64,000 bases of DNA, taken from Owenia fusiformis (taxonomy: Eukaryota; Annelida; Polychaeta; Sabellida; Oweniidae). Both the position numbers and the translations under genes were made by a program. The stretch is from positions 12,010,932 through 12,074,931 of the forward strand of contig CAIIXF020000012.1 of the NCBI GenBank assembly GCA_903813345.2. Reading direction: 5' to 3'. This document shows positions 20,662 to 63,589 of the stretch, piece by piece. The notes beneath the pieces were generated by a model. That model did no database searches. It was given only the letters and a program-made list of their open reading frames with translations, and was not told where the DNA came from. Numbering within the stretch: the first letter of the stretch is position 1; each line of letters starts with the position of its first letter.

Positions 20662-20974
20662 ATGTATTCACGTTTGGCTCAGCAGTTTATGACTTCTTTG
20701 GCCTTGGTCGGTCTTTCATGGACATTATCATCACCATCTGGAACTTTTTTTGAAATGGGAGTACCTGGCCAGTCTTTGGATGATGTATATACCCTAGAGA
20801 GTATAAATGTGCGAAGTTTAGCTGAATGCAGCCGATCCTGTAAACTAAACGATGAGTGTTACTCGTTCAACTTTGAGCATGGCGCAACGGGAATGGCACA
20901 ATGTGGTCTTGTGTATTGTAATGCAGAAGTAAATAACTCTGCATTGGTTTCTAACACCGCAATGACATACTATA
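20662..20974 (+). CDS. Gene A exon 1: signal peptide and PAN/apple-like domain
   Basis: It begins MYSRLAQQFMTSLALVGLSW, a hydrophobic secretion signal. A PAN/apple-type pattern follows: LAECSRSCKLNDECYSFNFE and then two cysteines in CGLVYCNA, ending near MTYY. Identity with exon 1 of gene B is high throughout. Known PAN modules bind protein or carbohydrate; the ligand here cannot be told. Confidence 0.85.
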
Positions 20975-23900
20975 AACTTCATTGGAAGAGACTGATTAAA
21001 AACACAATCGGTAATTACCAGAGAAACGGTTACAAGGCAACATGTTCGTTATATAGACGCCATGATATATGTGTTAACATTTCCGATGTAAATATACGTG
21101 TCGGATCCCTTGGATCTATGAAACCCTGCGTCTGGTGGATCTTGGCAAGGAAAAAACCACAATATACCCCGCAGTGTAAAACAATGATGAGACTAGCCAC
21201 TGATTGTCACGATCTACGCGTAAAAAATTCAGGTGTAAATAGTATTTGTATTGTCTGTAACAGGTTCGAAACAGAAACAATTGATCACTTTATCATGAAA
21301 TGTCCAAAATGGCAAGAACATCGTAACCAAATAGGTTTAATTACAAGAAAATACGGTGCTTTTAAAGAACTAGATAAGATATTTGCATATCCCGAGTGTG
21401 AAATTGATGACGATGATATGATAAGTATTGCATGTATAGTGCATAAAATGACTATTGTTAGATCAAACATTCTGAAAGAATACGTTGGCCAGTCGATTAT
21501 TATATTATAAAGACACTCTTGAAAGAACCAATGTCCTATAAAACATAAACAGTATTCATCCATTTAAAATGGAAGCTTTTTATTTAATTGTGTGATGTTA
21601 CCAAATGTAAATATGTTTGTAAAACCACTCTGTTTAAATACAGGTAAATAAATAATTAAATTAAATATAGACAGGTAACAAAGACAATATTTCCTAAATA
21701 TTGTTCTAATCTTATTAATCTGCATTTTTGGTCCGTTTCCTTTGGTACCTTTGCGTTCATAATCACATTTATCATATCATTTTTAAAACGTACTCCACAA
21801 AGAGGAAGAATGAATTGAATTTTCACACTCATGAATATTATAATGAGCCGCTTAAAAATCTGTGACGTCAATGAGAGAAACTTTTTCCCGCGAAAAACAA
21901 ATGCATTTGAGTTTACATGTAAATCCTTGGTTGATAGCTGTAAGTTTTACCTCTTCAAATGTGGAAGTAATCAGTAAATTATGGATAGATTTTTATTGAA
22001 CGTCAAATTGACATTTATTTACGCCTTCTAAGCGATTTTAATATTAAATTTCTGTTCATAATGAGTAAATAAATTGAAGAGAATTACTCCCGGTCAGTTT
22101 TCAATCATAATGGGAACTACATGTGAACAGGTGAAATTATCATAATCATTGGTTCACCAACATTATAACATGTCTCTCATGCATAAAAATATATAGATAG
22201 ACAATCTATTTTAAGTTATCTTCAGTGTCATTTGATGATATGTTCAAATTAAAAAAAATTGCTCATTGACTTCACTACTCCCATAATTCAATCAACTAAA
22301 CACGATTACTTCCTGTTTATTTCTGTAAGTCATATCAGATCGTATCTTGAAAATATAATACATGAAAGCATCGGGATATAGAATTGATATATTCCAATGT
22401 CTATTTCCCGCTGTGTATCTCCCGATCCAAATATTCCCTGGGAAATGTTTTTATTCAGCGTAGAAACAATCAATTTGTTAGAATATCTTGCATAAGCAAA
22501 ACGGTCAAAATAGATCCAGCACACCGCAGAATTTTTTTAACCAAAATGATGATGGATTTCTCGAAAATAATGAGAACGCTTAGAAAACGAACCTGAATAT
22601 GCAGGGTGTCCTGAAAACTTCACTTGTGAAACCTCACTGGTCATAGGATAAATTAGTTATATGATGATCGGTTTTGAATAATGATCACTGAAAAGATTTC
22701 AAAGAAAGAGCGTATATCATATAATATTTATTGATGATATGTTGACATTGCTGATCGCTGATGTTGAATTAATACCAATGGTAACGATATCGTATACGTA
22801 CTATGAACAAATTTCATTTGGTAAATAATAAAGTAATGGGTTAAGTCTAGCTTCTTGGATATAACATTTGGCTTCGAAGTTATCTTTTTAATAGCCAATG
22901 AGATAATTTAACCGAGTTGTTTGTAACTTCACAATTTACATTTTTTGTTTACAATCGCACGAGATATGTGAGCCCGGGTATGTGGAGCTGATCTCAGAAG
23001 TCTTAATAAACAATAGTTCTGTCAAAAATGATTAATTTAAATTACATAAGGTTCGGAAATAAAGTGCCCCGTCCATATTTCATAATTGATTAAAAAATAT
23101 AGTGCATTGGGCAAATAGAATCCTTTTTATTGTAGTTTATTCAAAATATTCCTATGCTGGCTGTACTAATTCTTCAAAACTTTCAGTCATTGACGTCATT
23201 GATTTGACTCATTTGCATACAACCAATCAGCGCGCCGGAAATTATCGATTTTCTTTACTTTGTGGAAAGGTGAATAGACAAAAATTATACATCATTGTAA
23301 AAATCTTTAGTTTTCCTGAAATAAAGTGACTTTGCACTTTGGGGATTCTTAGAAATTAGACATGAAAAGGAATGACACAAGCCAGAAATATTCTAAAATT
23401 GAAACATTTTTTTGTTAGGCTGCTCGCTAGATCCGATTCTCTCTCTTTAAATATTTTGAAATGATAAATCATAGTGTCATCGGATGATCTTTTTTGGCAG
23501 AATACGAAGTTACCTATTTTAATCCACTCCCCCTCCATCCAATATTAATTTATTTCGATTATTTTTTTGTATAACGTATGGAAACTAACTTTAAAAAGTG
23601 AGCAATGTCATTAGTGTTATGATAATAACGTCCCTTATACCTATTTATTACAGGTCGTGTAGACCATTGTTGCCTGATTTATAGCAAAAACATTGACTTT
23701 TACACGTTGGTGATGATGCGCCTTTTTTAATAGATCTCATATCTTAGAAGCGAATCAGTTCAAAAAAAATACTAGAAGACCTAACATATTTTGCCATGCA
23801 CTGCGCCTATTCATTTGGCAATTCAGTTGTCAATTTTTTCTTGAAAAATAAATCTTAAATTTGTTGATTTTTTGCAGAAATCGCCTACTCCCCCTCCATC

Positions 23901-26900
23901 CATTTTGTTCGACCACCGGGCGTGTTATTGTAATTAACGGAAACATTTAGAAAATTTTGAGGTATAAGAAATAAAGTCAAGATACATCTCCACCTGCATT
24001 ATTAGTTTTTTATTTGCAGCTTATGAAAATAAAAATATAAACACAGAGTCAGAGTAACACGTAAGTCTATGGGGAAAAGGTTGGCAAACTTATGGAGGGG
24101 GAGGGGAGTGTACTTTTTCTTATAATATTAAGGGTGTGGCCTTACAGACACGTCAACAGACTACAACAAATAACATTGATTTATAATACCATTATGTTAT
24201 CACAACCTTTCTTTTCAGGTGTCACAGGTACCAGAAAAAGAAGCTCCTTTGTGTAGTAAGTATAGATTATTGGAAAATATATTATATATATTGACGGTCA
24301 ATATCATGTGTAATTGGAGATAAAGAAAAAATATCTAACGAGGTTGACGTGACAATATGAAACAATATATGAATCAGGTGTAATTGGTTCTTCAGATGAA
24401 GTCAGTTCCAAAAGAAGACCATAATATCGGATCATAATGTATCCTTTATTTTCGTAGCATGAATAATGTTCAACATAAGTGTCTTAATCCGTGATACCAG
24501 AATAAATCTAACTCCAGAATTGTGTGCATCTTTATAAAGAACGTCACAATCCGTCATGCTGAAATGTAGTGATCCTATGGAAAGCTCCTTTAAACAGCTT
24601 TTCGATCTAGACAATATAGATTTCCCATAGCTAGTGTTTTACTTTGATTCTTTGAATGAGAAACAATCCTTTAGTCTAGATATAATCATTAAGAATATTA
24701 AGAATACGGTCGATAAAATCCAGCCATCCTATCAAAAGTTAAGAGCGTTCACTTAAATTAATTTATTTGATGCCTTTTAAAATATCCGGCATCCATGACA
24801 AAGAACTCTTATCAAGGGCCATGCCAGTCATTCATAACTTATAAGCATCAAAACCTTATATTATTACAAGTATTACATACCTAGCGAAGCATTTGTATGG
24901 AAGTCAATGGGAAAGTTAGCGAGCTATATCCACCGATATTGCCCGATTACCCCGATATAGCCCGCTTACCTCGTTTTGATATTAGATTTCTTTAATAACC
25001 ATGATAATATCATGACGTCACGTCCCGGGCGTCACGTCATTGATACAAAGTAACCATGGGAACAAAGGCATGTAATACATCAGTTATGTCACTATGACGT
25101 GAAATATGCCTTCGTTCTTGCCCAAATATGCGTCATAGTGACATAACCTCTAAGTATTTCATATCCAGAGTGGTATATGTAGCTAATGCCGTGGTCACAT
25201 TTGCTCCGATTTTTAGTACGGCGCCCGGCCGATCGGAGCAAATGTGACCACGGCAGTAAGTGGGTCAAATCTTTTGAGCGTTACAACGTTTGCTCTAAAA
25301 TGTCGTCCATTCCTTTGCAGACATATATGGATTCTACACAAAATATGCCACCCAGCTTTTGTAACATTACTTTGTAAATACTATATTGATCTTGGCTTGT
25401 ACTTTCAGGGAAATGAAAGCCATTCAATTAAACACAAAATAATTATTGCTAATTTTGCTATAACTTTTGTTTTGTTTGCTTTTTCTCCATGGAACTTTCA
25501 CAACACAAGGTACATATATTTGACTTTATTCTATAAAAATTTAAAGTCATTTAATTTAGTATTAACAAAGTTATAGTACTAGTTACTAAGGTAGACAGTG
25601 TCATGGATACGTGGGGCAAAGTTCTGACGTCACTTTGGACGACATTTTGAGTGTTGAAAGCAGTATCATTAATACTCTTGGATATGCAGTGCAGTTACAA
25701 ATAATCCATCCCAGAGTCACTTCATAATCCATCACTTCATGAGGGGCTCAAAATAGGCACCATTAGCATTAATTAGCATTAGTTGCTGTCTGGCGACCCA
25801 CTCGTGGTACACGTTTTTGAAGCCACCCTTGAAGTGTGTGGCGAGGGAGGTGGTCACTACAGACATCAGCTGATTGAGATTCCGGTGTGATATTCCTCTC
25901 AGATCTCTTTTCACTGGGGCGAATACAGCGAAACCATGTGGGGCCTTATCTGGGGATATATTGAGTGGGGCAATGCTTCCGTGCCGAGCTCTGTTTATGT
26001 ATTTTGGACAATGGATCTAGAGGATCTGTGAGCAGGCCGTTATCCTGGTGGAACCCATTAGATCGATATTGCTTGGCAGGACAGCCTTTCTATCAGTCAT
26101 TTTGTTTCAGGGGGGTATGACATCATCATGCGATTATCATCTACTCCTTTGATAATGTACTATACATATAGTATATTGTGACAAAGAATTTCATCAGCTA
26201 TTGCCCCGAACCGGTCCGTCTTCTCGCTACAAGCAGATTGCCCCGAACCGGTCCGTTTTCTCGCTGCAAGCAGGATGAAATTCTTTGTCACAAAGTTTGG
26301 CATTTTTTATAAAATCAAACGCGCGTCATTGAAACTCAGAAGATGTAAATAGCATGTCATTTACATCATACCTTGATGGGGAAAAATAGATCTTATATGT
26401 TAGAAGTACTAAATAAAAGTTATCGTGAAAATGAGACAGTCGTTCTCGAGAGAAAAGAGCATAAATGCGCATTTAGAGAGTTTTGGTCTGTTTAAAAATC
26501 TGTAAAAAATTGGGGTACTTAAAAGCATCGGGAGGCATCATATATTTCAAATTAGACACGAGGAAGTCAATATTCAGCAAGTTATGGCTGTTTTAAATTC
26601 AAATAAAACCGTGAACCCGTACCGGTCCAGCTTTTGACCCGTACCGGTCAATTTTCGTTAGCTGCGTATACCAAGGGTGAAATATTATGTTACAAAAGGT
26701 GGGTGTCATTTTTGCGTAAGATACAATTCGGCCAGCAAATGCTCGTAAATGTGCACCTAGGTGAGCTAGTCATCTAATACTTCTTGTGGAGTTGCAAAAT
26801 GGTTTGTAGGTTCAATGTGCGAAAAGACAAATCAGCATTTCTCAGACTAAAAAGTTATGAAACATTATGCGGGTGGGTGTCATTTTTTGTGTCACGGCCA

Positions 26901-27834
26901 AAACTGCAAATGTGCAGTTCAAGATCGGCGCAGTTTTGTATTTTTGTAACATATTTATACCATGTATGTAAATGTGTTTTTCTTTGGGAAATAAAGAAAA
27001 AACAAAACAAAGAAGCTATAATAAAGTGTCAAAGGTAATGAATGGCCATACCAATTGCAAGATACCTCGACATTTTTGTAAAAAAGAGTATGAAGGCATT
27101 AATTTCGTACTATTTGTGAAAATGTAGTATCTAAGGTATTTGAACTTAATCATAATATTCACCATATTTGTTATGTAGGTGTAGATGAAGATTGCGGAGT
27201 AAATCCCACATTTACGGGTTTGAAGCAGCTCAAGACCTCGGATGGAATGATCTTCAACGCCTATTGTGAACAGGGATGGACTTATGTTCTTAAGAGATTT
27301 GATGGAAGCGAAGATTTCTACCGTAGCTGGGTTGAATACCAGCAAGGCTTTGGTGAACGTAATAAAGAGAACTTTATAGGACTGGATAACCTTGCTAGCA
27401 TGTTGAAACAAAGGAGTTATAAAGTTCGATTTGATATAACAGCTTTTCCTTCTGACACCTCTACTCTAATAAGTGGCTTCGCGGAATACTCAACGTTTAA
27501 TATGGCTGACGAGAGTGACAAATATCGGATCGCCATCAGTGGGTATTCCGGTAATGCGGGAGATTCGATGGCATTTCAAAATGGGCAACAATTCACAACA
27601 TATGACCAAGACAATGATTCTGATGCGGGTAACTGCGCTGATCAATACAAGGGTGCATGGTGGTACAATGCTTGTCATCAAAGTAATTTGTTCGGTTTGT
27701 ATGTGAATAGTGCAATTTGTCCAGCGTATGGCCAGTGTGTTAACTGGTTTGCATGGCCCGATGCTCTTGCCTCACCGAATGATAACTCCTATATATCTTT
27801 CAAAGAGGCATCTATGAGAATACATCGCAATTAG
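20662..27834 (+). CDS. Gene A: PAN + linker + fibrinogen-related domain protein, interrupted by a LINE
   Basis: Predicted parts are exon 1 (20662 to donor after 21674, with a LINE fragment inside), micro-exon 2 (24228-24255) and the FReD exon (27179-27834). Without the LINE, exon 1 would end in phase 0, the micro-exon carries 28 nt, and the FReD exon begins with two bases completing the split codon, so the joined frame is open. F-type lectin exons present in paralogues B and D are missing between 24256 and 27178. The intact gene would make a secreted protein with an N-terminal PAN/apple-like domain and a C-terminal lectin-like FReD. As it stands the LINE introduces a stop at 21510. The locus is therefore a recent pseudogene, encodes a truncated chimera, or splices around the insertion. 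Confidence 0.7.
20975..21665 (+). mobile_element. 5'-truncated LINE 3' end inserted in gene A exon 1
   Basis: After the exon codons for MTYY the sequence diverges abruptly from the paralogues. It stays open in the same frame to 21510 and contains CIVCNRFETETIDHFIMKC, the zinc-ribbon CX2C...HX4C pattern found at the C-terminus of many LINE ORF2 proteins. It ends in an A/T-rich tail (AATAAATAATTAAATTAAA). The PAN exon then resumes with TATAGACAG|GTAACA at 21666, the same as the paralogues' TATAGACAG|GTAAGA. TATA is present on both sides (20971-20974 and 21666-21669) as a short target duplication. About 690 bp is a typical size for a truncated copy. Confidence 0.85.
21675..24227 (+). other. Intron 1 of gene A
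   Basis: No coding sequence supported. A right-arm fragment of the CACTCCCCTCC MITE family lies near its end. CAGGGTGTCC at about 22606 resembles a mariner-type end, but no partner was seen. Short frames on both strands (22330-22596, 23102-23538) look like chance. Confidence 0.5.
23930..24112. mobile_element. Right-arm fragment of the CACTCCCCTCC MITE family
   Basis: It shares with the complete copies the order TTTGAGGTAT, AAATAAAGTCAAG, AACACGTA and GGTTGGCAAACTTATGGAGG, ending GGGGAGTGTA. No matching left arm was identified, so the copy is partial. It lies in intron 1 of gene A, as related copies lie in intron 1 of B and D. Confidence 0.7.
24228..24255 (+). CDS. Gene A micro-exon 2 (linker)
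   Basis: The 28-nt exon encodes VPEKEAPLC plus one base, between acceptor TGTCACAG and donor GTAAGT. It aligns codon for codon with the 28-nt exon of gene B (VLDEQGPLC). A second acceptor nine bases upstream (TTTTCAG before 24219) would give a 37-nt version and add three residues in frame, so a tandem acceptor choice is possible. Confidence 0.7.
25083..25148. repeat. Hairpin: 17-bp inverted repeat
   Basis: GTTATGTCACTATGACG at 25083 and CGTCATAGTGACATAAC at 25131 are exact reverse complements separated by about 31 bp. It sits in intron 2 of gene A beside a second hairpin at 25187-25255. Confidence 0.85.
25187..25255. repeat. Perfect 24-bp-arm hairpin
   Basis: The left arm (25187-25210) begins TGCCGTGGTCACATTTGCTC. 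The right arm (25232-25255) is its exact reverse complement. The loop is 21 bp and G+C-rich. There are no mismatches, in contrast to surrounding decayed repeats, so it is young or maintained. It could be a very small MITE. Confidence 0.92.
25732..26110 (-). pseudogene. Mariner/Tc1-type transposase remnant
   Basis: On the minus strand the 3' part reads in one frame through VKRDLRG ... GGFKN ... and ends INANGAYFEPLMK before a stop. The ending resembles the C-terminus of mariner-like transposases, where a basic-aromatic stretch precedes a GxYFE-type end. Upstream, in another frame, is FHQDNGLL, like the second catalytic aspartate motif (QDNA.PH) of DDE transposases. Frames shift between the two parts, so it is not functional. 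No flanking terminal repeats were identified. The family call rests on short motifs only. Confidence 0.45.
26177..26292. repeat. Inverted-repeat-flanked duplicated CCGGTCC motif
   Basis: TGTGACAAAGAATTTCATC (26177-26195) and its exact reverse GATGAAATTCTTTGTCACA (26274-26292) enclose two tandem copies of a 35-bp unit starting ATTGCCCCGAACCGGTCCGT. A related pair of CCCGTACCGGTC words lies at about 26615-26652. G+C-rich direct repeats inside an AT-rich stem are unusual here. No function is assigned. Confidence 0.85.
26293..27178 (+). other. Remainder of intron 2 of gene A; no F-lectin exon
   Basis: Searched by eye for the F-type lectin exons of genes B and D (the AWWMVDL and CTHT coding words) and none is present. 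GGTGGGTGTCATTTTT occurs twice, at about 26699 and 26872, as a small dispersed repeat. Confidence 0.5.
27179..27834 (+). CDS. Gene A fibrinogen-related domain (FReD) exon
   Basis: A single exon opens after TTATGTAG at the codon split by a phase-1 intron and encodes 217 residues to TAG, a normal FReD length. Hallmarks in order are DEDCGVNPTFTG, AYCEQGWT, RFDGSEDFYRSW, GFGE, FIGLDN, YSGNAGDS, the DQDNDSD...NCAD calcium-site region, GAWWYNACHQSNLFG and the end FKEASMRIHRN. The CHxSNL segment lines the acetyl-group pocket in ficolins and tachylectin-5-type lectins, so ligand binding of that kind is plausible. The product is probably secreted with the PAN domain of exon 1. No frameshift or stop interrupts it. 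Confidence 0.93.
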
Positions 27835-27852
27835 AATGTTCACCAGTTGAAG

Positions 27853-28966
27853 ATGAATCCAACTTTGAACGTTATAGGCAGAAAACAATCATAACAATGA
27901 ATCCAACTTGAACGTTATCGACAGAAAACAATCATTACAATGAATCCAACTTTGAGCGTTATAGGCAGAAAACAATCATTACAATGAATGAAACTTTGAA
28001 CGTTATCGACAGAAAACAATCATTACAATGAATCCAACTTTGAACGTTACCGACAGAAAGCAATCATCACAATGAATCCAACTTTGAGCGTTATAGGCAG
28101 AAAACAATCATTACAATGAATCCAACTTTGAACGTTATCGACAGAAAACAATCATTACAATGAATCAAACTTTGAACGTTATAGGCAGAAAACAATCGTT
28201 ACAAATGAACCCAACTTTGAACGTTATAGACAGAAAAATTGCAGTCATTACAATGAATCCAACTTTGAACGTTATAGGCAGAAAACAATCATTAAAATAA
28301 AACCAACTTTGAGAGTTATAGGCAGAAAACAATCATTACAATGAATCCAACTTTGAGCGTTATAGGCAGAAAACAATCATTACAATGAATCCAACTTTGA
28401 ACGTTATAGACAGAAAACAATCATTACAATGAATGTAACTTTGAACGTTATAAGACAGCGAACACTCATTACGATGAATCCAACTTTGAACGTTATAGGC
28501 AGAAAACAATCATTACAATGAATCCAACTTTGAACGTTATAGGCAGAAAACCATTACAATGAATCCAACTTTGAACGTTTTAGGCAGAAAACAATCATTA
28601 CAATGAATCCAACTTTGAACGTTATAGACAGAAAACAATCATTACGATGAATCCAACTTTGAACGTTATAGACAGAAAACAATCATTACAATGAATCTAA
28701 CTTTGAACGTTATAGGCAGAAAACAATCATTACAAATGAATCCAACTTTGAACGTTATAGGCAGAAAACCATTACAATGAATCCAACTTCGAAGGATTTA
28801 GGCAGAAAACAATCATTACAACGAATCCAACTTTGAATGTAATAGACAGAAAACAATCATTACATTGAATCCAACTTTGAACGTAATAGGCAGAAAACAA
28901 TCATTACAATGAATCCAACTTTGAACGTTATAGGCAGAAAACCATTACAATGAATCCAAATTGTCG
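27853..28966 (+). repeat. 44-bp minisatellite directly after the gene A stop
   Basis: About 25 copies of a 44-bp unit (GAATCCAACTTTGAACGTTA / TAGGCAGAAAACAATCATTA / CAAT) fill 1.1 kb starting about 19 nt after the stop codon. Copies differ by single bases (TATAGGC/TATCGAC) and a few deletions. The paralogous 3' UTR of gene B (45302-45343) has the same lead-in sequence and just one shortened unit (AAAGTTATAGGCAGAAACAG). The array therefore seems to have expanded in place from a 3' UTR unit. Confidence 0.97.
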
Positions 28967-29721
28967 CGTTGTAAAATAGTTTATTACATTTTACATGTAC
29001 AAGGTGATCCAGAAGTAAGGTCAAAGGTATTGTCATTACAATACTGCCTGACTGATTATCTTTAAACTTGGTACAAAGGACCAGGTGCGATGATGTGCGA
29101 ATATCCCCATGATCAGAATGAATTACTCAGATGCGAGTAGGTAGTTACCAGTTTCGCCACCAGGTGGCTGAGTCGGGGGAAATAACATGGCAGGGTATTA
29201 CAGAATTCCCCTAAACTTGCATATTCATCAGTTTTAGTGGTTCACTTTTCCATATCACCCTTTTGTATCTGATAGTTATACAAATTAAAATATGCCCAGT
29301 ACAAGAAAATATAATCTGCCGAACACAAGAAAAGATATTTCACTTTATGTGATTTTACAACATGGGCTCTATGGGGAATCTCCCCGACCTATAGCTAGAA
29401 GTCACATTTTCAAAGGAAATTAAATTTTCAAAGTTGATAAACTCTTTTCAAAACCACATTTTTAGATGTAAATCTACATGTAGATTCCAAATATGACATC
29501 AGTTTGACTGAATTTTTATTTTTTGATGACTTAAATCAAGATTATTTCTACTCGCATCTAGTCTATTATGTCACATAATAGTTTTGAAAATATTTAAGCG
29601 TTTGGACCCACATGGACTCAGGTTGGGGTCATTAAGTGCAGTGACCCCATAATGCTACACAAATAGTCAGAGTTCCTTTGAGCAGAAATGAGATTTGATA
29701 TTTTAAAATTGTGTATACATA
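28967..29721. other. Spacer between genes A and B
   Basis: No gene. ACAAGGTGATCC at about 28998 looks like an isolated mariner-type end. A tandem 22-bp repeat (GTCATTTAGAGGGCAATTTC) lies further on at about 29898-29941, inside the next element. Confidence 0.45.
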
Positions 29722-31250: not shown

Positions 31251-31568
31251 ATGTATTTACTTTTGGCTTGGTTTTTCATGACTTTTCTGGCCATAGTTGG
31301 CCTTACATTTGCCAAATCATCGCCATATGAAACGTTTTTCAAAAGGGGAATCCTAGGTCAGTCTTTAGATGATAGATATACTTTTGAGAGTGTACCTGTG
31401 CAAGGTCTAGCTGAATGCAGTAGATTATGTCAACTGAACGACCACTGTTATTCGTTCAACTTTGAGCATGGCGCAACGGGAATGGCACAATGTGGTCTTG
31501 TGTATTGTAATGCAGATGTAAATGACTCTGCATTAGTTTCTAACACCGCAATGACCTACTACAGACAG
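31251..31568 (+). CDS. Gene B exon 1: signal peptide and PAN/apple-like domain
   Basis: 106 codons end at CAG|GTAAGA. Residues 1-21 are a hydrophobic leader (MYLLLAWFFMTFLAIVGLTF...). The mature part has the cysteine pattern ECSRLCQLNDHC ... CGLVYC and the NFEHGATGMAQ core shared with genes A, C and D. Two N-glycosylation-type sites are not obvious beyond NDS. Confidence 0.88.
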
Positions 31569-34500
31569 GTAAGACAATATGTTATACAATGTGTTCGTTC
31601 TCCAAATAATAGATACATACTTCATATTTCAATTAAAGAACCGCGAGTTGTTTGCAAAATGAATTGGGGGAGTTTTTGTTCATGCATTTCGCTTGTGTTT
31701 TCATATTTTTTCACCTAGTAAGTATTATTAAAACACTTTAAACATTTTATTGACTATAAGGTTGCACCATATAATCCGAAAAACATATTTTTCATTTTCA
31801 AGGATTGTCTATGGATTAACACCCAGGTATTTTTATTTTTCAAACTTCAGAGGACTGGGAATCATTGGTTACGAAAGCTTTAAACATACACTCCCCTCAA
31901 TAAGTTTGGCAACCTTTTTTCCCCATTGAACTACTGTACGTGTTAAAGCCTCTTTACGTTTGAATTTTTATTTACTTAACCGGCGATGAAATAACTTATA
32001 ATATTGATGGAAACGTAACTTGACTTTATTTTCAATACCTTCAAATTTTCTCAATTTTTTCCTGAATTACAATAGGTCGAAAATTGATGATAAATTTGAT
32101 GAATTTTTGAAAATCGTCATTCCCATGTAATGTAAAAATATTTTTATATAGAAAATTGAATTGTCTAACTTTTTTGAACACTAAGTGTTTAGTTTATTTG
32201 ATGAATATTAAAGATACAGCGCTTCAAAGTCATTTTTGAAAATAATTTTCCGCCTCCTGTGTTATTTCGATGGGTGAGGTTTTTTGAAAAACAATTTTGA
32301 CTTTAAAGCCCTATAACTTTGTTGAACCTGAAGAAACATATCAATTTTTTGTTAAATAAAGTTAGCAAATTCAACTGCCACCCTAACTCGTATTTTTGCA
32401 AGGACTCGGATGGATGGATATTCTGTCATATGACTTGCGGCAAACCTACCATTTCCCATTGGTTAACATGGGAATGTCGATTTTCAAAAATTCATCAAAT
32501 TTATCATCAATTTTTGACCTATTGTAATTGAAGAAAAAATTGAGAAAATTTGGAGGTATTGGAATTAAGGTCAAATTACGTTCCCAGCAATAGTTTAAGT
32601 ATTTTCATCGCAAGTTAAGTAAATAAAAATTCAAAGGTAAAGAGGCTTTAACACGTAGTTCAATGGGGGAAAAAAGGTTGCCAAACTTATGGAGGGGAGT
32701 GTAAATGCTGTTTTAAGTAGGGTTCATGTATGACAATAATTTTTCAAATTGTGCAAATCCCTTCCTTAATCCCTATTATTTCTCTTTGAGGAATTTCCCA
32801 TAGTAATCCAATGTTATAGTTCAAAGCAGATTTTTGAGATAACAGGAAAGTAAATCATTTATACACACCCATTGGGTTGTGATATGAACCAAAACAACCG
32901 AATACTGGGTATTAATGATGAAAACTCAGGGCAAATCAGATTTCTGGATATCTTTTCAGTAAATGCCTCACCAAAAAAATATTTTTAGATAGAAAATTGA
33001 ATTGTCTAACTTTTTTGAACGCAAAGTGTTAAGTTTACTTTGTGAACATTAAAGTTGAGCTTCAAAGTCATTTTGAAAACCATTTTTCGCCTCCTGAGCT
33101 TCAAAGTCATGTTTGAAAATCATTTTCGCCTCCTGTGTTATTTCAATGGAAGAGGTTTCTTGAAAAATAACTTTGACTTTTAAGACCTATAACTTTGTTG
33201 AACGTGAAGACACAACTCATTTTTTTGTTCCAAATTCAATTTGTTACCTAACTAGTGTTTTGCAGAACTCGGTTAGATGGATATTCTGTCATATGACTTT
33301 CAACAAACCTATCAGTTCCCATTGTTTTATTGGATAAATTTTCAAAAAATCATTAAGAGAGCACAATGATCAGTCAAGGGCATTGCATGGCATATAATAT
33401 CAGGGTCAAATATTTAATACTGCGTTGGAAGAGAAAGATAGAATTCGAAGGACTGTTAAACATCTGAACTGAAAAAATGATCACCTTACATATTCAGGGA
33501 GGTTTCTTAGAATGGGGGTATGAGAACACCTGAAAGCACAATGCGTGTGATTGCATCCGAAATATCACTCAGAAGGCGCAGCCATACCAGAGGATGGATT
33601 AAAGGTTGCTGGGACACTTCCTCATTAATGATCTCAACCTCTGTACTCACAAAATGCAATTAACAAGAGACCAAATTAATGTGACTGGTTTAAACAAACG
33701 ATATGTAGTTCGCTTTGGTTGACACGAATATCTTACATTTTCTTTTCTTTCAAAAATTTTTTCAAATTGAGCAATATCGAAAGTTTCATAAAGAATTTAA
33801 ACTCATACTGTCATCCAAAATTGTAGTTTTTGTACATGAAAAATGAAGCTGATTGCATTTGCTATCACACCTTGAATTTTTAATCTTTGTTCAGTAGAGT
33901 TATCAAAAATGAATATTGACGAGGATGATTTGTCCATGTGTTTGGAAATATCGGAGTTACAATTCAATCAAAAATGTTATATGTAAAATAGTCGTGGAAT
34001 AATCTGCTAAAACAGGCATATTAACCCGATATTCAGGTCGGCGTTTGGGTTTGACGCGATATCTTTCAGCTTCCGGGATGCACGGCAGGTACTCTTTAAG
34101 GAATAGATAATGATAGAGGCCATTTAATATGGTGAAATTCAGCACGATTTGGACAGAATGTCGTAAGTGAGTGCATTTGTACTGACATTCTGTCCAACGA
34201 GTGTAGAATTTCACCATATTGAATGGCCTATCGTTATTTATTCCGATTTAAGCATTAAAATGAAAACATTGTTCGGATAATAAGGGATTGATGTCTATAA
34301 AATAACGACATTCGAGCAGCATATGTTTTCTCAATCATTTACATCATCGGCCTTTGCACCAAGAGGGAAACATCGATTCATTATAACAAAGTTATTATTT
34401 TCAGGTATTGGACGAGCAGGGTCCTTTATGTAGTAAGTATACATATTGTGTATTGATCGTTGAACAAAAGGCAGGAAATCATTTACAGTATGCCATGATA

Positions 34501-45349: not shown

Positions 45350-45355
45350 AATAAA
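45350..45355 (+). terminator. Poly(A) signal of gene B
   Basis: AATAAA lies 57 nt after the stop codon, just past the single TTATAGGCAGAAA unit that is the seed-like counterpart of the gene A minisatellite. Confidence 0.75.
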
Positions 45356-48754: not shown

Positions 48755-48829
48755 GTAACACAATCTTTTATACATTGTTGATCCTTCTCAAAATAACAGT
48801 TACACACTTCAATTGAATTTAATAAATTT

Positions 48830-54096: not shown

Positions 54097-56281
54097 TAGA
54101 CTCACCAAAGAAGTTACAAATTGTTACGGAACAAGGGGAACATCAATAAATATCGGGAAATTGGATTTTTAATGTATCAAACAGATTTTTTAAATATCCA
54201 ATATCCGTTATATGTAATCATGACCAAACACAGTGACACTGAATCAGACTGCAATACTGAATTCGTCCACATCTTCATGAAATTTGCCTCATTGTGGAGG
54301 GTTTTAAAAATCCCAGGGGTTATTAGACATTGTTTCTTTAAACCCTAGTTCATCATAATTTACGAGATTTATTTTTTCACGAAAAAGTTTCCGAATGAAT
54401 AGGTTAATGAATAGGTGCACGTTATTGTGAAATCTGTTTGGTATTTCATGATTTTTCCACACTACTATAAAGGTATGAGATCTATAAAAGGCGCAACGCC
54501 ACCAACGTGCACAAGTCAATCTTTCGCTGTAAATAAAGCAACGGGTCATTGACTTTTTTCCTATAACCAATCCTGTCCCAATTTTTCGCTCTTCGGAGAT
54601 AATGTACATGTAACAACAGTAATTATTGGTAAAAATATACCAAAAAGCTCCTCCTTATGTAACTTTGACCTATTTTTCTACATTTACCTACGTTTGAGAT
54701 TTTAATACACCCCTCTCAAGAGTTTTGAATGACCTATATTGTACCTTAGTTCTTACTATACCTCTTCAACTCAGAAAACGCTGACCTGTTACCTACCCGT
54801 AGGACTCCATTCCAAAGAACGTCAGCCCGACGGACCTACGTTCCTAGGACCGGAGGTCCAGGACCTCCGGTCCTTTTATAGGCGTTCCTAGTCGGACATA
54901 TATTCCAAGCTTTAATATATATGAATATATACTACGGACGTATTTTCCCGACGGACTTGGATTCCTGCTACAGGAGTTTAGGTCCATGGAACTCTATATT
55001 AATATATAATTCTGTACATAAATATACAAAGAAAAATGCACTTGATCAGCCATCCATGACAGCTCACTAAGTAGATCGTTTTGATAGAGTATTAGTAATA
55101 GATATTTTATTTAATGATTTAGTTAGAAGTACAACCCCTGTTCGACTCCCCTTGGCTCCCTATTTTTCTTTTTTTTATGTTTTTTCATTTAATTTTATTT
55201 TGGCAAGGTCAAAAGGATTTCGTGTGTATTCGCTTCGAAAGACTTTTAGCTTTCTGATTACGTTGAAAGATTCTCGAGCATTGCTTGATTTTTTTCGTCG
55301 TAAATAGACCCCAAAACTTTATCGGTTGGAAAATGTTTTGTTTTGTTCACATTTTTTGTGATAATTTTTCCTGTGTCGCCTAAGAGTGTCAATTATTTTT
55401 ATGAGAATACATTTTCCTCAATTACACAATTTTGGATGGTCGAAGATTTAATAAATTTACCGTATTGGGTATACTTTTTTAAAGAAATAAAAAGTTTTTG
55501 GCATTCTTAAGCTTGGTAAATGTTAAGGCAGCCATTTTGGATTTTCCGTCCTAAAATCTTGTCTGTAAAGTCTTGTCTTTGCGTTTTCAGGTTAACAGTT
55601 TGAGGGATCAATTTTAAATTTTCAGGGATGATTCTTAGTATGAAAATCTTGGAACTGATTTTTTTCTGCATTCTGGGTAAATTCTAAGGTCGTCATTTCG
55701 GATTTTCCATCCTGAAATCCTTTCTGTAAAGTATTTTCTACACATTTCCTAGCAAACCAAATGACAGATCGATTTCAAATTTCCAGGAATGATTCTACTT
55801 GAAATTCCTTAAAACGTGTTGAAAGTTAAGAATTATTACTGTAAAACCAGTGCTGTTAACCTAGATGGCTTCGATGCTTCTAGAAAATTCTACAATTTTA
55901 AAATGCTTGGTGATTTCCGGGCAACATCAATTGAAAAAATAGAATTTTTTAAAGTCCCTTGAGATAATATTATACATTCAATGAATTCAGAATTTTTTCA
56001 AGATGCTTTTTAGTATTTCTGGGTAGTAGTTCAAGGTGTTCGAATAAAGTAAAAAATGATTTTATTTTTGGGGGGTGCCGGACAGGTCTGTCAATTATTT
56101 TCATGTTATGAAATTTTGGGGGAACTCAAAGAAGTCGAACCATAAACTTCTGATTGTCGCTCAGAGTTTGCTTTTAACTTATGGTAACCCTTGTAATTTA
56201 CTAGTTATAGTTGTTTTCCCGGGTTGCGTTATGCTGGCCGGATGGCAGATTATGCCAGACTGCGCTAGGTGTCGGGTTATA
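54097..56281. other. No gene seen; one G+C-rich perfect palindrome
   Basis: At 54846-54874 AGGACCGGAGGTCC and its exact reverse flank a single A, a very tight cruciform-type palindrome in AT-rich DNA, within a stretch repeating GGACCTACG, GGACGTA and GACGGAC words. The rest has no supported exon. Confidence 0.55.
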
Positions 56282-56287
56282 CAATAT

Positions 56288-57813
56288 CAGACTTGCCAAC
56301 CTAAAATGAAAAATTTTCGGGAGATTTAAAAAAAATTGCGATACTTTTACGGGAGTTTTTTTCAAAATCCGGTAGTTTTTGCGGGAGTTTTTTGAAAAAA
56401 AGCGGGAGTTTTCACGGGAGATTTTTGAAACAAACGGTAGTTTTTACGGAAGATTAAAAAAACGGGAGTTTTTGCGGTAAATTTTGAAAAAAATTGGAGT
56501 TTTCACGGGAGATTTTGAAAAAACGGGAGTTTTTAAGGGAGATTTTTTAAAAAAATGTATTTTTCGCGGTAAATTTTAAAAAACGCGACTTTTTTACGGA
56601 AGATTTCAGAAAAAACGGGAGTTTTTGCGGTAGGTTCTGAAAAAACGGGAGTTTTTACGGTAGAATTTGAAAAAACTGGAGTTTTAAAAAAAACGGGAGT
56701 TTTTACGGTAGATTTCTGAAAAAACGGGAGTTTTTACGGTAGATTCTAAAAAGCGGGAGTTTTTACGGTAGATTTCTGAAAAAAACGGGAGTTTTTACGG
56801 TAGATTTCTGAAAAACTGGAGTTTTTACGGTAGATTTCTGAAAAAACTGGAGTTTTTACGGTAGATTTCTGAAAAAACGGGAGTTTTACGGTAGATTTTG
56901 AAAAACTGGAGTTTTTACGGTAGATTTTGAAAGAACGGGAGTTTTTACGGTAGATTTCTGAAAAACGGGAGTTTTTACGGTAGATTTTGAAAAAATGGGA
57001 GATTCAAAGATTCGTAAAATGTATACTATACTATACGTTCACTATATGCTAAGGGCAATCTGCGTGAGGTTCCATTTTTAGGTTCGGTTTTTCGCGCATG
57101 AGCTTTAAATCCAGCGATTGAATTGGTTGAAATTATTATGACGCATGCGCAGTTAATAAATAAATTAGAACTTAGAATCTAAGATAGATGTCACTTACGT
57201 TCATTATTTCACAGCAGTCCCTACCCATAATGCGCCTTATATTGCGGGAATATTTTGTTTAGCGCCATATAAAAACAAAATGTATTCTCCCGACAGAAGT
57301 ATGACAGAATATGAACTGGCCCCGTTTGTGGACATTTGGTGTGCAAACTTATACTCAACTGATCGCAGAAAAGCAATTTGAATCATGGGAATGAAGTACT
57401 TTTAAGTTATTTATGAAAGTATCGATAGTGAACCATGGGAGCCAATCCTTCTTGGAGTAAAAGAAAGAAGCGTGCCTGCAATAATCAAGGTCAAAAATTT
57501 GTCAAATTCCTTTTAAATACGGTAGATTTCGACAGCAAAAAAACGGAGATTTTACGGGAGTTATACCAGAAAACGGGAGATTTTACGGGAGTTATACCAA
57601 GAATACGGGAGATTTTACGGGAGTTATACCAGGATACAAAAGATTTTACGGCCATATTTTTTTTTTAAATTACGGGAGATTTTAGTAGAAATACGGTACG
57701 GGAGTTTACGGGAGTTTTTACGGGAGAAAACGGTACGTAAGTTTGGTATTTTTTACGGAAAAACAAAAAATTTACGGGAGATTCCCGTAAAAAACGGGAG
57801 GTTGGCAAGTCTG
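56288..57813. mobile_element. 1.5-kb transposon-like element filled with a ~30-bp minisatellite
   Basis: Inverted ends CAGACTTGCCAACCT (56288-56302) and AGGTTGGCAAGTCTG (57799-57813) are flanked by perfect direct repeats CAATAT (56282-56287, 57814-57819). Inside, about 25 copies of a 28-31 bp unit (ACGGGAGTTTTTACGGTAGA / TTTTGAAAAA) occupy 56310-57003. A different ~35-bp series (ACGGGAGATTTTACGGGAGT / TATACC) lies at 57515-57790, and a unique stretch with CGCGCATGAGC separates them. No transposase. The end sequence and duplication fit a non-autonomous DNA element; hAT is possible if the true duplication is 8 bp with decay. Confidence 0.9.
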
Positions 57814-58177
57814 CAATATCGTCTTGTGTGCTTCGTGCTATCACGGGTTGTGGCTGGTCGATGCAGTTGATTTGACAGCATTCTCATTATACTTTTCGCG
57901 GTGTGATTCATTTGATTTTGGTGATGAAAAATGCATTTTGGAAACTTTCATTATTATGTGTAAGCCATTCAAAATGGCCCATTGGTATTCACTCTACATG
58001 ATCGTATGTAGGTTTTTGTTTTATTAGGATGTCAGTATTGTACTAAGTTCACAAACATGCATGTCAACCATAGCCAATCAGAGGAGAGCACCCCTTTTAA
58101 GTGATGAGAATAAATCCTATACCCTGAGAAATATCTATATTGAGGGAGAACACATCGGATGAATCTATTGACTGTTT

Positions 58178-58233: not shown

Positions 58234-58551
58234 ATGTATTTACGTTTGGCTTGGGTTTTCATGACTTTTCTGGCCATTGTTGGCCTGACATTTGCCATAT
58301 CATCGCCTTATGAAACTTTTTTCAAAAGAGGAGTTCTAGGTCAGTCTTTAAATGGGAGATATACTTTTGAAAGTATAGCTTTGCAAAGTTTAGCTGAATG
58401 CGGCCGATCATGCCAGCTAAACGATGACTGTTATTCGTTCAACTTTGAGCATGGCATTACAGGGATGGCACTGTGTGATTTGGCATATTGTAATGCAGAA
58501 GTAAATGACTCAGCATTAGTGTATGATACTTCAATGACCTACTATAGACAG
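58234..58551 (+). CDS. Gene D exon 1: signal peptide and PAN/apple-like domain
   Basis: 106 codons like gene B, with leader MYLRLAWVFMTFLAIVGLTF and ECGRSCQLNDDCYSFNFEHG ... CDLAYCNAEV. It ends at CAG|GTAAGA. Substitutions relative to B cluster in loops (ITGMALCD, VYDTS); all cysteines are kept. Confidence 0.88.
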
Positions 58552-61500
58552 GTAAGACAATATTTAATACAATATGGTCTTTCTCCAAATAAAAAATACA
58601 TACATCATATTTCAATTAGGGAGCACATAGGTTATCGCAAACAATTTCAGAAGGTTATATATTGGATTATGACTATTTTCTGACAATGAAGACAGGTTTA
58701 TCTTTAAGATCAATTCATTATCTCAAAGAAAATTATATACAGCAATAATTAAATCAAACAAACTCGGAGATATTTAACTAGCAATCAACCCATCAACACT
58801 TTTTCAAAGATGTTGACCCAATTTTCACCAAAAATGCAATCACTTTTTACAATGTTTAATGCATTACTATTCTTTATTTTGATGTATCAAATAGTTCTTG
58901 AAAGAAAAACTTAATTGCTTTAAGATAAGTGTTCCCCATGTTATTTCTCCATTCTCAAAGCACATTCTAATTATGCATTCAACAATATAATAAAAGGTTG
59001 CATTTTTGGTGAAAATTAGGTCAATATTTTTGAAAATGTATGTTGATTGGTCCATTGCCCCTTCAATATCACTTAGGTCTGATTAACTAAATTATCAATA
59101 TATATACTTTCCTTGAAGATAATGAATGGATCTCAAAGATACATCCATGTTCATCATCAGAAAATATTCATAATTCAAGTTAGAATCGTTTGAAATTGTT
59201 TGCGATTACCTACGTGCTCCAAGAACTTTAAATAAAATCAAATAAATAAAAGTTTACATAACTGACAACGTTATCCAAGTTTTAGTTAATATTTTTTAAA
59301 CAAAACATGCATGCCTCTGAACAAGCTCAAACGCAGCTTGTGAAATTGCAAATATTTTTTTTCAGTCAGTCAGTTTTTTACCAGTTTAAATATTTTAAAG
59401 ACGTCTTCATCTTTTGATGGGCGACAAAAATAAATAATTTATTTTAGTGACTCCTGTGTTAGAGGCGAATCGTAAACACATTATAAATTAATGACGCAAA
59501 TTGAACATAGTAAATATGATAACATAATGCCTCGGATAATTCCTTCGATGAATTACTTCCTGCATTTTAAAAGTAAGTGGGACATCGACGTTACGGACCT
59601 CGATCCTAATGGATACATTGTGTTATTCACTTCATCAAATATTGAAAATTCTGTTACATTACTGCTTGTAGTAAACAAGTAATACCTATAATGGATCCAA
59701 GTAGTAATTACGCAAAAAAAATACAAATGCTAAAGGTGGAAATGCATCTTGACTTTATTTCCAACGCCCATTTTTCCATTACAATAGGTCGAAAATTGTT
59801 GACACATATGATGAATTTTTGAAAATTGTCATTCAATGTAAACCAATGGGAAATGGTGGGATCGGAGCAAATCAGATTTCTGGATATCTTTTCAGTAAAT
59901 GCTTCACCAAAAATTGAATTGTCTAACGTTTTGAATGCTAAGTGTTAAGTTTACTTTGTGAACATTAAAGTTACAGAGCGTTAAAGTCATTTTTGAAAAC
60001 CATTTTTCAACTCCTGTATTATTTCAACGGGAGGGGTTTCTTGAAAAATAATTTGGAGACGTTTTGGACTTTGGAGACCTATAACTTTGTTGAACGTTAA
60101 GAAACATATCATTTTTTGTTACACAAACTTTGCAAATTCAATCGGTTACCTAACTAGCTGTATTTTGCGAGAACTCGGATAGATGGATATTCTGCCATAT
60201 TACCTTCGACAAACCTATCAGTTCCAATTGGTTTATTATGGGAATGTCGATCTTCAAAACTTCAGATTTGTCATCAAAATCCGACCTAATGTTATTGCTG
60301 AAAACATTGAGAAAAATTGGAGGTAGACGAAATGCTGTACTTTATAGCTCAAGCCCTAAAGCAGTTTTTTCTTTACAGACTATGCAAATAAGAATTCAAA
60401 CATAAATAGGCGTTTAAACGATTATATCCTATGGGGGGAGTTAACGAAGTTCATCAATCTAAATGAGCATTATCCCTGCTTCGGACAATTTTTTTTACAT
60501 AATATAGATTTGAATGTCTTCTTTTGAATAGTCATAATTTAATTTGGGTAATATTCCTAGATTTTTCGCAAAATAATATTAGTACAGTACACTGATTAAC
60601 TTCTTTCCTCAAATCGAGACTTGTATTTTATTGAATTGGTCTAATTGAGCGTTACCCCTGCGTCAGACCAATTTGTTATTTTTACTTCTTGTAGATTTAA
60701 ATGTCCTCTTTTGAATATTCATAGTTTAATCTGGGTAATATTTCCATATTTTTCATGAACAAAATTATTAGCCCAGGAGACTGTTCTCCAAACCGAGAAT
60801 CGTCCTTTATGAATGGGAGTGTATATTGTTTTAGAGGCAATGAAAAAGTAACACAAATTGTTCCAGAATAATTATTAAATAAACATAGGGGACGGGACAT
60901 CAATATGAATTGGGAAATTTGATTCTTTCAAGTTATCAAATAAATGTGTTATTATCCAATATCCGTAATACTCGTATGCCATTACGTTATCCTGGTATGA
61001 GAGTGCCTGACTTTTAATATTAAGTTGTTTCCCATGGACTTGTTAACCTTAGTCAAATGAAAGTCTTGTGTGGACTTAAACCTACAGGGGACCCATAAAC
61101 ACAGAACCCTCTAAAAGTGTAATAATTTCTTAAATACAAAAACCTGTCAATCCAATTTCGAGTCGAACGAAATGCCTGATATTTGAGCAGCACATGTTTA
61201 CTCTATCCATTACATCATCGGCCTGGGCATCTAGAATGAAACATTGATTAATAATAATAACGTTATCATTTCCAGGTATTGGACGAGCAGGAGGGTCCTT
61301 TTTGTAGTAAGTATACATATTTTACACGAATCGTAATATTTCTTGAACAAAAGGCAGGAGATCATTTGCCTTGTGATTAAGTATTTTCGTACATATTATG
61401 TATTTACCCACACGAAATAAAACGTTGACAATTTTAGAATTGGATGCTTTTACTTGTGTGACCTTAATTCTGTGTCATTATACACCTCTCCTCCATACGT

Positions 61501-63589
61501 TTTGCAACCGTAACCCCCCAATTGGATTACATGCTTAAGCCTATTTATGTTTGAATTTTTCTTTCCCTGTGTGTTGAGAAAAGGGGTTGGATTATGAATT
61601 GTCATCATTTCTAATACCTCAACAAATTTCATTAGAACTGTTCTGGTGTGCCTAAAATTTCATTGATGTCACTTGTCTAGATTACTTCAATGGTCTCCTT
61701 TTTCTGTTCATCTTGTAGTTTATTGTCTTTGTCATTATAACGTCAATACGCCAATTTTCAAAAGCTCATCAAATTTGTCAAATTTCGACCTATTGTAATT
61801 GAGAAAAAATGAAGAAATTAATAGGCGTTGTAAATGAAGTCAAGTTACATTTACACCTTTATCATAAGTTTTCATCGTTATTGTAACTGTATCCATTACT
61901 TTGGGCAGACTCTCTCACATACAATACAAGTGTATATGAAATTATCGGAATATTTCTTTCTTATTTTTCAATCATGGTGAAATAAATGTACATCGTTTGT
62001 ATGAAGAGTTGATTACGAATTTTTTTCGAAGCACACCTGGCGTTGAAGATCACTAATCAATCATCAACGACAATTAACGGATACTCACACCGAGCCGTTG
62101 ATGGGGATTATACGACTGAATGGAACGCTGATGCGCCATGCACACACACAGATCCTGAAGAAAAAGCATGGTGGATGGTTGATCTTGAGGGAATGTACAA
62201 TGTCAATGCTGTCAGACTTGTGAATCGCAAGGAGGCACCAGGTAGTAATTTATAATTAAGGCATTCAAATTGATAGCAATTTCAGTAAATGGTTGATATA
62301 AGAACTCCCACACTAAGGCTAAAAATGTCATTGGATTTTAGTTTATTTGAAATATTTATAGCATAATTAATATGTTCTACTCTTTTGTGAGTATTGCGAT
62401 GTCACAATGGTATATATTGAATAAAAAAGTGGTGATTATATATAATGTCGTCAACACCATAAGATTTATTACGTATCCCTGGTTTTCACGCTTTAGTACC
62501 AACCAAAAATTTCAAGAGGCCTTAGTTAAGGTACAGCTGGAAAATAACAATTTGTGAAAAACTTGCTGTACCTCCACACGTATTTTCTTGTACAAAATTA
62601 AGTATGAAGGCATGTGTGTATTTCCTTGCTTTTTTCAGGAAAGTATCATTACATTGTCTATCTTTAGTAAACCTGGAAACAGGTCAATCGTATCTCCTGT
62701 GTTGTCTAGAAACTTAAAAAGAAAATTTTGGAAAATATAAAGCGATATCAGAATTTTACTGGAGTTCGCATTGACATCTTACCAGATACTTTCCTGAAAA
62801 AAGCAATGGAATTTACACATGCCTTTATACTTTATTTTGTGCGATAAAAATATAACACGACCAGGTATAGCAATTTTCCCCAAATGTTATTTTCCTGCTG
62901 TACCTTAAACGTTAATGTCATGTTTGAGAACCCCTATTTTAACCATTGAAAATGGATTCTAGGAATACTATCCCATATGAATGGACTTGTTGCTTAAATC
63001 CCCATTTTCTCAGAAGAAAACAAGTTGATCGAATTTCAACAAGTAGATTCATGTTGGATTGTATTGCTAGAATCCATTTTTAAAAGTAAGAATAGGGGTC
63101 ATTAAACGGGACATTGGGCCTGCTTTTTAGAACTTTTTGTTGGTACTACTATGGCATTTCATTAGTCTGAGAAAATTTGGGCAGCCTCTTTTATATCGTT
63201 AAAATTTCGCCGACAACTTATTTAATTTCCTGAGAGTATACTGTATAATTTACATTTCGTTCGTTATATTATACCAAGTCATTATTTTTATCACACTTTT
63301 TTCGGATTCACTTAGTCCACTCAATTGAATCATTATAATATTTGACGCGAGCTATGCAATGTCATTTTTTACAGAAAGGCTCAAACATTTTTCAATAGAA
63401 GTGAGCAACGACACGGTCGCGTGGGATCTTTGTGTTTACCACCAAGATGTACTCGCAAACAATCAGTCCTGGCAAATGTTCCACTGCCCAAGTCACCTTG
63501 TGGGAAGCTACTTAAGAGTTCAACTTGACCACATTGGTGTTCTGACATTGTGTGAGGTTGAGGTTTACGGCTTCTTGACACGGAACTAA
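58234..63589 (+). CDS. Gene D: PAN + linker + F-type lectin, ends without FReD
   Basis: The exons are 58234-58551, 61276-61306, 62032-62241 and 63375-63589 (318, 31, 210, 215 nt), together 774 nt encoding 257 aa plus stop. Phases match gene B. The linker exon has one extra codon (VLDEQEGPFC). In the last exon the gene B donor region ACAG|GTAAAT reads ACACGGAACTAA, so the frame ends LTRN-stop two codons past the old splice site. The product would be a secreted PAN plus fucolectin protein lacking the FReD. Exon 3 uses a less common AAG acceptor and the donor GTAGTA is weak, but paralogue alignment supports both. No frame damage was seen, so the shortened gene may be functional. Confidence 0.85.
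59735..60330. mobile_element. Diverged copy of the CACTCCCCTCC MITE family in gene D intron 1
   Basis: It shares CATTACAATAGGTCGAAAAT, CATATGATGAATTTTTGAAAAT, TATAACTTTGTTGAACGT and GATGGATATTCTG in the right order with the copies at 32-33 kb, but outer ends are lost. The subfamily is closest to 32940-33350 in intron 1 of gene B. Confidence 0.75.
60443..60812. mobile_element. Truncated second copy of the AAGGACGATTCTCGG element (empty site)
   Basis: It runs in reverse to the 52.6-54.1 kb copy: GTTCATCAATCTAAATGAGC ... ACATAATATAGATTTGAATG ... TCTCCAAACCGAGAATCGTC. At about 60500-60506 the word TAATATAG is continuous where the other copy carries the 1.1-kb insertion. Confidence 0.85.
61087..61140. 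mobile_element. Isolated end of the 17.1-18.4 kb element family
   Basis: AACACAGAACCCTCTAAAAG followed by TGTAATAATTTCTTAAATAC matches the terminal repeat of that element. The rest is missing. It lies in intron 1 of gene D. Confidence 0.65.
61276..61306 (+). CDS. Gene D micro-exon 2 (linker, 31 nt)
   Basis: Acceptor TTTCCAG and donor GTAAGT. It encodes VLDEQEGPFC plus one base, one codon more than gene B. The flanking intron sequence after the donor (TATACATATT, GAACAAAAGGCAGGA) matches gene B. Confidence 0.78.
61483..61887. mobile_element. Partial CACTCCCCTCC-type MITE in gene D intron 2
   Basis: It starts CACCTCTCCTCCATACGTTT after TA (61481-61482) and retains both arm interiors around AATTTCGACCTATTGTAATT, but the right terminus is eroded. 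The matching place in gene B intron 2 (about 34615) has no insertion, so this copy arrived after the B/D duplication or was lost from B. Confidence 0.7.
62032..62241 (+). CDS. Gene D exon 3: F-type lectin domain, first half
   Basis: LALKITNQSS ... SHRAVDGDYT ... CTHTDPEEKAWWMVDL ... VRLVNRKEAPG. His to Arg spacing of 26 residues is preserved exactly. It is nearly identical to gene B exon 3, with DP for NA after CTHT and Y for F before NVNAV. Confidence 0.9.
62530..62904. mobile_element. piggyBac-type MITE with TTAA duplication in gene D intron 3
   Basis: GGTACAGCTGGAAAATAACA on the left and GGTACAGCAGGAAAATAACA in reverse on the right, with arms of about 170 bp including AAGGCATGTGT and CAGGAAAGTATC. 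TTAA flanks both ends (62526-62529, 62905-62908), the diagnostic duplication of piggyBac transposases. It is 375 bp with no frame. Gene B intron 3 lacks it. Confidence 0.88.
62925..63110. mobile_element. Small hairpin insertion in gene D intron 3
   Basis: TTGAGAACCCCTATTTTAAC ... ATGGATTCTAG pairs with CTAGAATCCAT ... AGAATAGGGGTCA about 110 bp away. It is absent from the matching gene B intron. Borders and duplication are unclear, so it may be a MITE or part of a larger insertion. Confidence 0.55.
63375..63589 (+). CDS. Gene D exon 4: F-type lectin domain, second half, terminal
   Basis: ERLKHFSIEVSN ... WDLCVYHQDVLANN ... CPSHLVGSYLRVQL ... CEVEVYGFLTRN then TAA. The motif R-X-E-X4-R is completed by ER at the exon start. 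The 3' flank still matches gene B intron 4 (TATAGGTGACATAAATACT), showing that the stop arose by change at the old donor and not by deletion. Confidence 0.9.

Follow-up and report, generated by a model that had tools for sequence, protein, structure and literature searches.

A small tandem family of putative secreted mosaic lectin genes in Owenia fusiformis, with one apparently intact three-domain member

Four PAN-type loci in tandem

We analysed a stretch of 64,000 nucleotides of contig CAIIXF020000012.1 of the annelid Owenia fusiformis (assembly GCA_903813345.2), referred to throughout as the window, which holds a tandem series of four loci, A to D, each beginning with a PAN-type exon. Some of them also carry an F-type lectin domain (FTLD), a fibrinogen-related domain (FReD) or both. 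The proposal of an initial annotation that these are four paralogous loci was borne out by tblastn searches of the whole window, on both strands, with five queries (two PAN, two lectin halves and one FReD). PAN was found at four loci, starting at 20662 (A), 31251 (B), 47845 (C) and 58234 (D), the lectin at two (B and D) and the FReD at two (A and B), all on the plus strand. Away from these loci the best E-values in the window were 0.12 for the second lectin half, 0.30 for the FReD, 0.95 for PAN and 1.5 for the first lectin half, none of which is convincing. The window has the character of animal DNA in its introns, its domains, a potassium channel exon and LINE-like elements. The GC content is 30-38% across 16 blocks of 4 kb, and an Rfam search at gathering scores returned no matches.

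In gene B, exons for PAN, an F-type lectin and a FReD share one frame

Gene B occupies positions 31251-45293, and its parts are as follows.

31251-31568, plus strand: exon 1, signal-peptide-like start and PAN (Pfam PAN_1, E = 2.7e-4, 21.2 bits)
34405-34432, plus strand: exon 2, 28-nt micro-exon (VLDEQGPLC)
34722-34931, plus strand: exon 3, first half of the F-type lectin, 210 nt (Pfam F5_F8_type_C_2, E = 2.5e-16; FBP32, E = 1e-23)
35300-35506, plus strand: exon 4, second half of the F-type lectin, 207 nt (same Pfam and FBP32 matches as exon 3)
35507-44634, plus strand: intron 4 (9.1 kb), which contains retroelements in both orientations
35721-37292, plus strand, and 37514-39184, minus strand: reverse-transcriptase frames in intron 4 (Pfam RVT_1, E = 1.6e-31 and 2.8e-31)
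44635-45293, plus strand: exon 5, FReD with stop (Pfam Fibrinogen_C, E = 6.5e-47)

The exon joins proposed by the initial annotation (31568 to 34405-34432, to 34722-34931, to 35300-35506, to 44635) proved right. All four introns are GT-AG, the boundary phases are 0/1/1/1, and the five exons join to 1422 nt, that is 473 codons and a stop, with no internal stop. A signal-peptide-like start, PAN, the FTLD and the FReD thus follow one another in a single frame, from exons of compatible phase, and an AATAAA lies at 45350, 57 nt past the stop. The FTLD is itself split by an intron (34932-35299 in B and 62242-63374 in D). Together the two lectin exons form a cassette of 417 nt with phase 1-1 borders, such that, as had been pointed out, a module can be absent without a change of frame. 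Since phase 1-1 is the usual rule for the shuffled modules of extracellular mosaic proteins, the phases alone are not special.

In intron 4, between 35721 and 40017, the minus-strand reverse-transcriptase frame sits between the plus-strand one and a further plus-strand open frame (39109-40017), which matched no Pfam family. The retroelements are possibly nested.

Domain identity

Profile hidden Markov model searches, as suggested in the initial annotation, recovered Fibrinogen_C and F5/8C clearly; PAN_1, with a cut-off of 21.4 bits, was exceeded in A (25.9 bits) and D (23.3 bits), and B (21.2 bits) fell just under it. Six PAN cysteines are kept in A, B and D when the micro-exon is counted in, and the micro-exon would complete the PAN domain in B.

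Two F5/8-C models match the lectin of B (E = 2.5e-16 and 6.8e-14). Its best match in the PDB is FBP32 (E = 1e-23), followed among others by a platelet aggregation factor (two sequences), two fucolectin-related proteins and 1k12, which we take to be eel agglutinin. Within the 139-residue domain the triad H39-R66-R72 can be recognised, with the spacing HX26R, and both B and D read H-X26-R-X-E-X3-R. Compared with the published fucose motif, given as HX24RXDX4(R/K) in the available part of PMC5712786, this sequence shows a D to E change and a loop that is one residue shorter. The His52-Arg79 spacing of eel agglutinin in that source is HX26R, as here, and FBP32 aligns to the lectin loop without a gap in its second domain and with one gap in its first. 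The sequence AVDGD, found in B and in D, fits the calcium motif hhDGx of F-type lectins, as described in the same text (PMC5712786).

For the FReD of B the best PDB matches are tenascins and ficolins, and the stretch DRDNDS..NCA..KGAWWY..CH aligns with DKDTDS..NCA..KGAFWY..CH of tenascin. Pfam and PDB matches together give strong support to the FTLD and FReD assignments, and that of PAN lies only around the Pfam cut-off. With an E limit of 1, Pfam returned no immunoglobulin (Ig) family for B; nor did Pfam find a collagen, EGF or FnIII part in it, and an NCBIfam scan, made for B only, gave no matches.

Gene A is broken by an insert in its PAN exon

20662-20974, plus strand: signal-peptide-like start and PAN, up to the insert (tblastn; Pfam PAN_1, E = 9.1e-6, 25.9 bits)
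20975-21669, plus strand: 695-nt insert that interrupts the PAN exon, bordered on each side by TATA
21670-21674, plus strand: final 5 nt of the original PAN exon (from comparison with the exon ends of B and D)
24228-24255, plus strand: probable micro-exon of 28 nt (VPEKEAPLC), entered in phase 0 and left in phase 1
27179-27834, plus strand: FReD exon, intact, with stop (Pfam Fibrinogen_C, E = 7.7e-46)
27850-28973, plus strand: minisatellite with a unit of about 44 nt (self-blastn)

The description of A as a PAN plus FReD gene holds for its old layout and not for a working gene. The 695-nt insert, which lies five bases before the former donor, had been missed. Because the exon now runs into a stop within the insert (21508-21510), we rejected A as an intact gene. 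The former donor can be placed at 21674/21675, where the donor region of D matches 21652-21704 (blastn, E = 3.4e-4). An open frame in the insert has a weak match, below the cut-off, to zf-RVT, the zinc finger of reverse-transcriptase tails (16 bits, where the cut-off is 27.5; E = 0.019), so the insert is probably derived from a retroelement; no second copy was present in the window at E = 1e-6.

Compared with the micro-exon of B, the candidate in A has 10 mismatches in 28 bases. Three other sites in the window reach the same count, but only the candidate is preceded by AG and followed by GTAAGTA. Its surroundings are also related to those of the micro-exons in B (blastn, E = 1.8e-4) and D (E = 2.6e-6). 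It ends in phase 1, and the FReD exon that follows begins in phase 1. A possible phase-1 donor at 21011 in the insert could splice straight to the FReD, bypassing the micro-exon.

We rejected lectin relics between the PAN and FReD exons of A, since tblastn gave only two matches there, both at chance level: one at 22.4 kb (E = 6.9) and one at 26.4 kb on the minus strand (E = 3.8). Another chance match, with E = 3.9, falls within the FReD exon itself. The minisatellite begins 16 nt past the stop of A, and since a related fragment follows the FReD stop of B, the array may have expanded out of the 3' end of the gene itself.

C is a relic and D has lost its lectin donor

47845-48038, plus strand: C, 5' part of the PAN exon, frame broken
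48609-48710, plus strand: C, 3' part of the PAN exon, after a 570-nt interruption
58234-58551, plus strand: D exon 1, signal-peptide-like start and PAN (Pfam PAN_1, E = 5.9e-5, 23.3 bits)
61276-61306, plus strand: D exon 2, 31-nt micro-exon (VLDEQEGPFC)
62032-62241, plus strand: D exon 3, first half of the F-type lectin (Pfam, E = 5.1e-17)
63375-63589, plus strand: D exon 4, second half of the F-type lectin, read to the stop, former donor lost

With its change of frame and its 570-nt interruption, C is, by its sequence, the PAN relic that the initial annotation had taken it to be. Over 188 aligned bases its first piece differs from B at 13, from D at 32 and from A at 52, B being the nearest. 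A and C are both broken.

In D the micro-exon is one codon longer than the 28 nt of B and the phase is unchanged; the keeping of phase despite a 3-nt indel is good evidence that the micro-exon of B and D is a real coding exon. D lacks the donor that follows the lectin in B (ACAG/GTAAAT), and its frame stops two codons on, at 63587-63589. The reading of D as PAN plus F-type lectin was upheld, and D would yield a protein of that form. No FReD was found in the 411 nt between this stop and the end of the window at 64000, any later sequence lying outside it.

Constraint and exchange between the copies

Five pairwise comparisons of the ratio of non-synonymous to synonymous divergence (dN/dS) were made by the method of Nei and Gojobori. 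For PAN the values were 0.33 (A-B), 0.25 (A-D) and 0.20 (B-D), for the lectin 0.14 (B-D) and for the FReD 0.19 (A-B). Between B and D the exons are more alike than the aligned introns or flanks: 269/318 identical bases against 123/154 for PAN, 27/28 against 182/238 for the micro-exon, 195/210 against 224/291 for the first lectin exon and 185/207 against 104/125 for the second. Taken together, the low dN/dS and the closer likeness of exons indicate that the proteins encoded by the copies were constrained. Between the regions upstream of A and of B no likeness remains (39/81).

Within the PAN exons of A and B there is a tract of 104 nt (20863-20966 and 31452-31555) with only 3 mismatches, against 57 in the remaining 208 nt, and a tract as strong was reached by none of 5000 codon shuffles. 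At the same 104 sites A and D differ at 21 and B and D at 20. The best PAN segments of these other pairs were reached by 866 (A-D) and 1135 (B-D) of 5000 codon shuffles, and the best FReD tract of A and B by 61 of 3000 shuffles, which makes exchange there only suggestive. The PAN tract is consistent with an exchange between A and B akin to gene conversion, and would be the sole sign of sequence exchange between the copies.

The initial annotation had seen in these genes a locus that generates recognition diversity by swapping phase-1 cassettes. The phase 1-1 borders, the different module sets of the copies and the A/B tract all speak for such a locus. However, each absence of a module coincides with a disabling event, the copies without modules being broken or truncated, none of the cassettes appears in a new setting, the dN/dS between copies is low, and the clear exchange tract is the only one. 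Given the insert in A, the frameshift in C, the lost donor in D and the constraint on the copies, we find this explanation unsupported and regard it as very improbable. What the copies show resembles the usual course of gene birth and decay, and the paralogues suggest that modules were lost through donor loss, insertion and frameshift, not through clean cassette swaps.

Other features of the window

13544-14368: potassium channel exon (Pfam Ion_trans_2, E = 2e-26), likely of a neighbouring gene
23926-24100, 31883-33356, 42575-44330, 59727-60325 and 61476-61877: copies of an interspersed repeat

The channel is presumably of the two-pore type. Copies of the interspersed repeat, which are 72-95% alike and occur in direct and inverted orientation, lie inside introns of A, B and D. 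Short-period repeats at 56200-57000 and 57430-57870 are visible as KTPVF- and REILREL-like open frames.

A small family of mosaic lectins

We consider it probable that the window holds a small tandem family of secreted mosaic lectin genes, of which B is the intact three-domain member. B would be transcribed as a single mRNA, and its chain would be secreted by means of a putative signal peptide. From the triad and the calcium motif, the F-type lectin would be expected to bind fucose-type glycans, and the FReD may bind acetylated or other glycans with calcium, such that one chain could recognise two sugar patterns. PAN would act as a protein or glycan contact, or as an assembly module, and the whole protein may serve defence or another recognition task. 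The family itself would evolve as copies are duplicated, now and then exchange sequence, and decay.

Several points weigh against this. The function of B is read from homology alone. Its PAN lies 0.2 bits under the Pfam cut-off, an AlphaFold model of PAN has a mean predicted local distance difference test score (pLDDT) of only 40.6, and a profile search of the PDB with PAN, run to E = 5, returned no matches. The fucose motif is inexact (RXEX3R instead of RXDX4R). The micro-exon of A shares 18 of 28 bases with that of B, a count that by itself is no better than three chance sites. Finally, the last intron of B spans 9.1 kb and contains many retroelements, and soon after the lectin donor the frame meets a stop (GKLHL and then the stop).

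These last two features mean that B could end after the lectin, as D does, leaving the FReD as the last exon of another, unrecognised gene or as a stranded relic. Both genes have an ATTAAA past the lectin stop, at 52 nt in B and at 76 nt in D, a motif that is common in AT-rich DNA. However, the donor of B (ACAG/GTAAAT) is well kept and in phase 1, matching the phase-1 acceptor of the FReD. Neither FReD frame, in A or in B, has a methionine upstream of the domain with which to start on its own, and a crude scan of intron 4 found no exon with a hydrophobic start and a phase-1 donor. In A, too, the FReD comes after a probable micro-exon of a PAN gene, and the dN/dS of the FReD is low (0.19). We therefore judge a B gene that ends after the lectin to be unlikely, and prefer the three-domain B.

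Should B prove to be transcribed as a three-domain mRNA, two lectin folds that mostly occur in different innate-immune families would be combined in one protein, and one could ask in a simple setting whether a mosaic lectin reads two sugar patterns simultaneously. More tentatively, and in our view less likely than not, the genes may represent an undescribed class of bispecific lectins, in which a fucolectin and a ficolin-like domain stand behind PAN, a short form of PAN and fucolectin ends in the last intron, and PAN is exchanged between copies.

Comparison with known systems

The component domains are familiar, and it is their combination, PAN with FTLD and FReD, that looks unusual. The initial annotation knew of no named family with this architecture. 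This stands for the three-domain combination, of which we saw no example in the literature searched, which is weak evidence of novelty, most subscription papers and the animal sequence databases lying outside the scope of that search. It does not stand for PAN with FReD, which is known in molluscs (PMC7588048). Searches of prokaryote contigs with the FReD alignment gave 28 pattern matches, and of viral contigs 75 with the FReD alignment, 21 with PAN and 2 with the whole B protein; none was confirmed, and misses in such contigs say little.

In the available part of PMC7588048, Biomphalaria FREP1/Bg179, four Crassostrea gigas genes and some Lottia FReDs are reported to combine a PAN/apple with a fibrinogen domain. 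These resemble B in this pairing; however, 'F-type' occurs nowhere in that paper, and FREP1 has an Ig domain, which B lacks.

F-type lectins are known as mosaic proteins, and the Figure 1 legend of PMC5712786 names H-type and C-type lectin, pentraxin, CCP, regulatory and transmembrane partner domains; the word 'fibrinogen' does not occur in the available text of that source. FBP32, eel agglutinin and oyster bindin have the same His-Arg-Arg triad and calcium motif as B and D. B differs from them in that a single FTLD stands between PAN and FReD, with a loop one residue shorter than in the published motif.

Oyster bindin also raises the possibility that B is a gamete-recognition protein and not an immune lectin. 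Bindin is a sperm acrosome protein whose FTLDs are split by an intron in mid-domain, where recombination occurs, with a retroposon upstream of one gene (available text of PMC5712786). The intron has its match in the FTLD of B and D, and retroelements lie nearby here as well. However, bindin has 1-5 FTLDs and eight sites under positive selection, according to the same text, whereas here there is one FTLD per gene, fused in B to PAN and FReD, with a dN/dS of 0.14 over the whole domain. A role of the bindin kind thus seems to us quite improbable, though less so than the cassette-swapping locus.

The ficolins and tenascins, which are the best PDB relatives of the FReD, differ from B, which is without their collagen, EGF or FnIII parts by Pfam. 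The VIgL proteins of gastropods (FREP, CREP and GREP) are, like the predicted B protein, secreted mosaics with a C-terminal lectin-type domain, and FREPs are clustered (available part of PMC10903818). B carries two different lectin-type domains per chain and has no Ig domain, whereas FREPs have one or two Ig domains N-terminal to the FBG domain.

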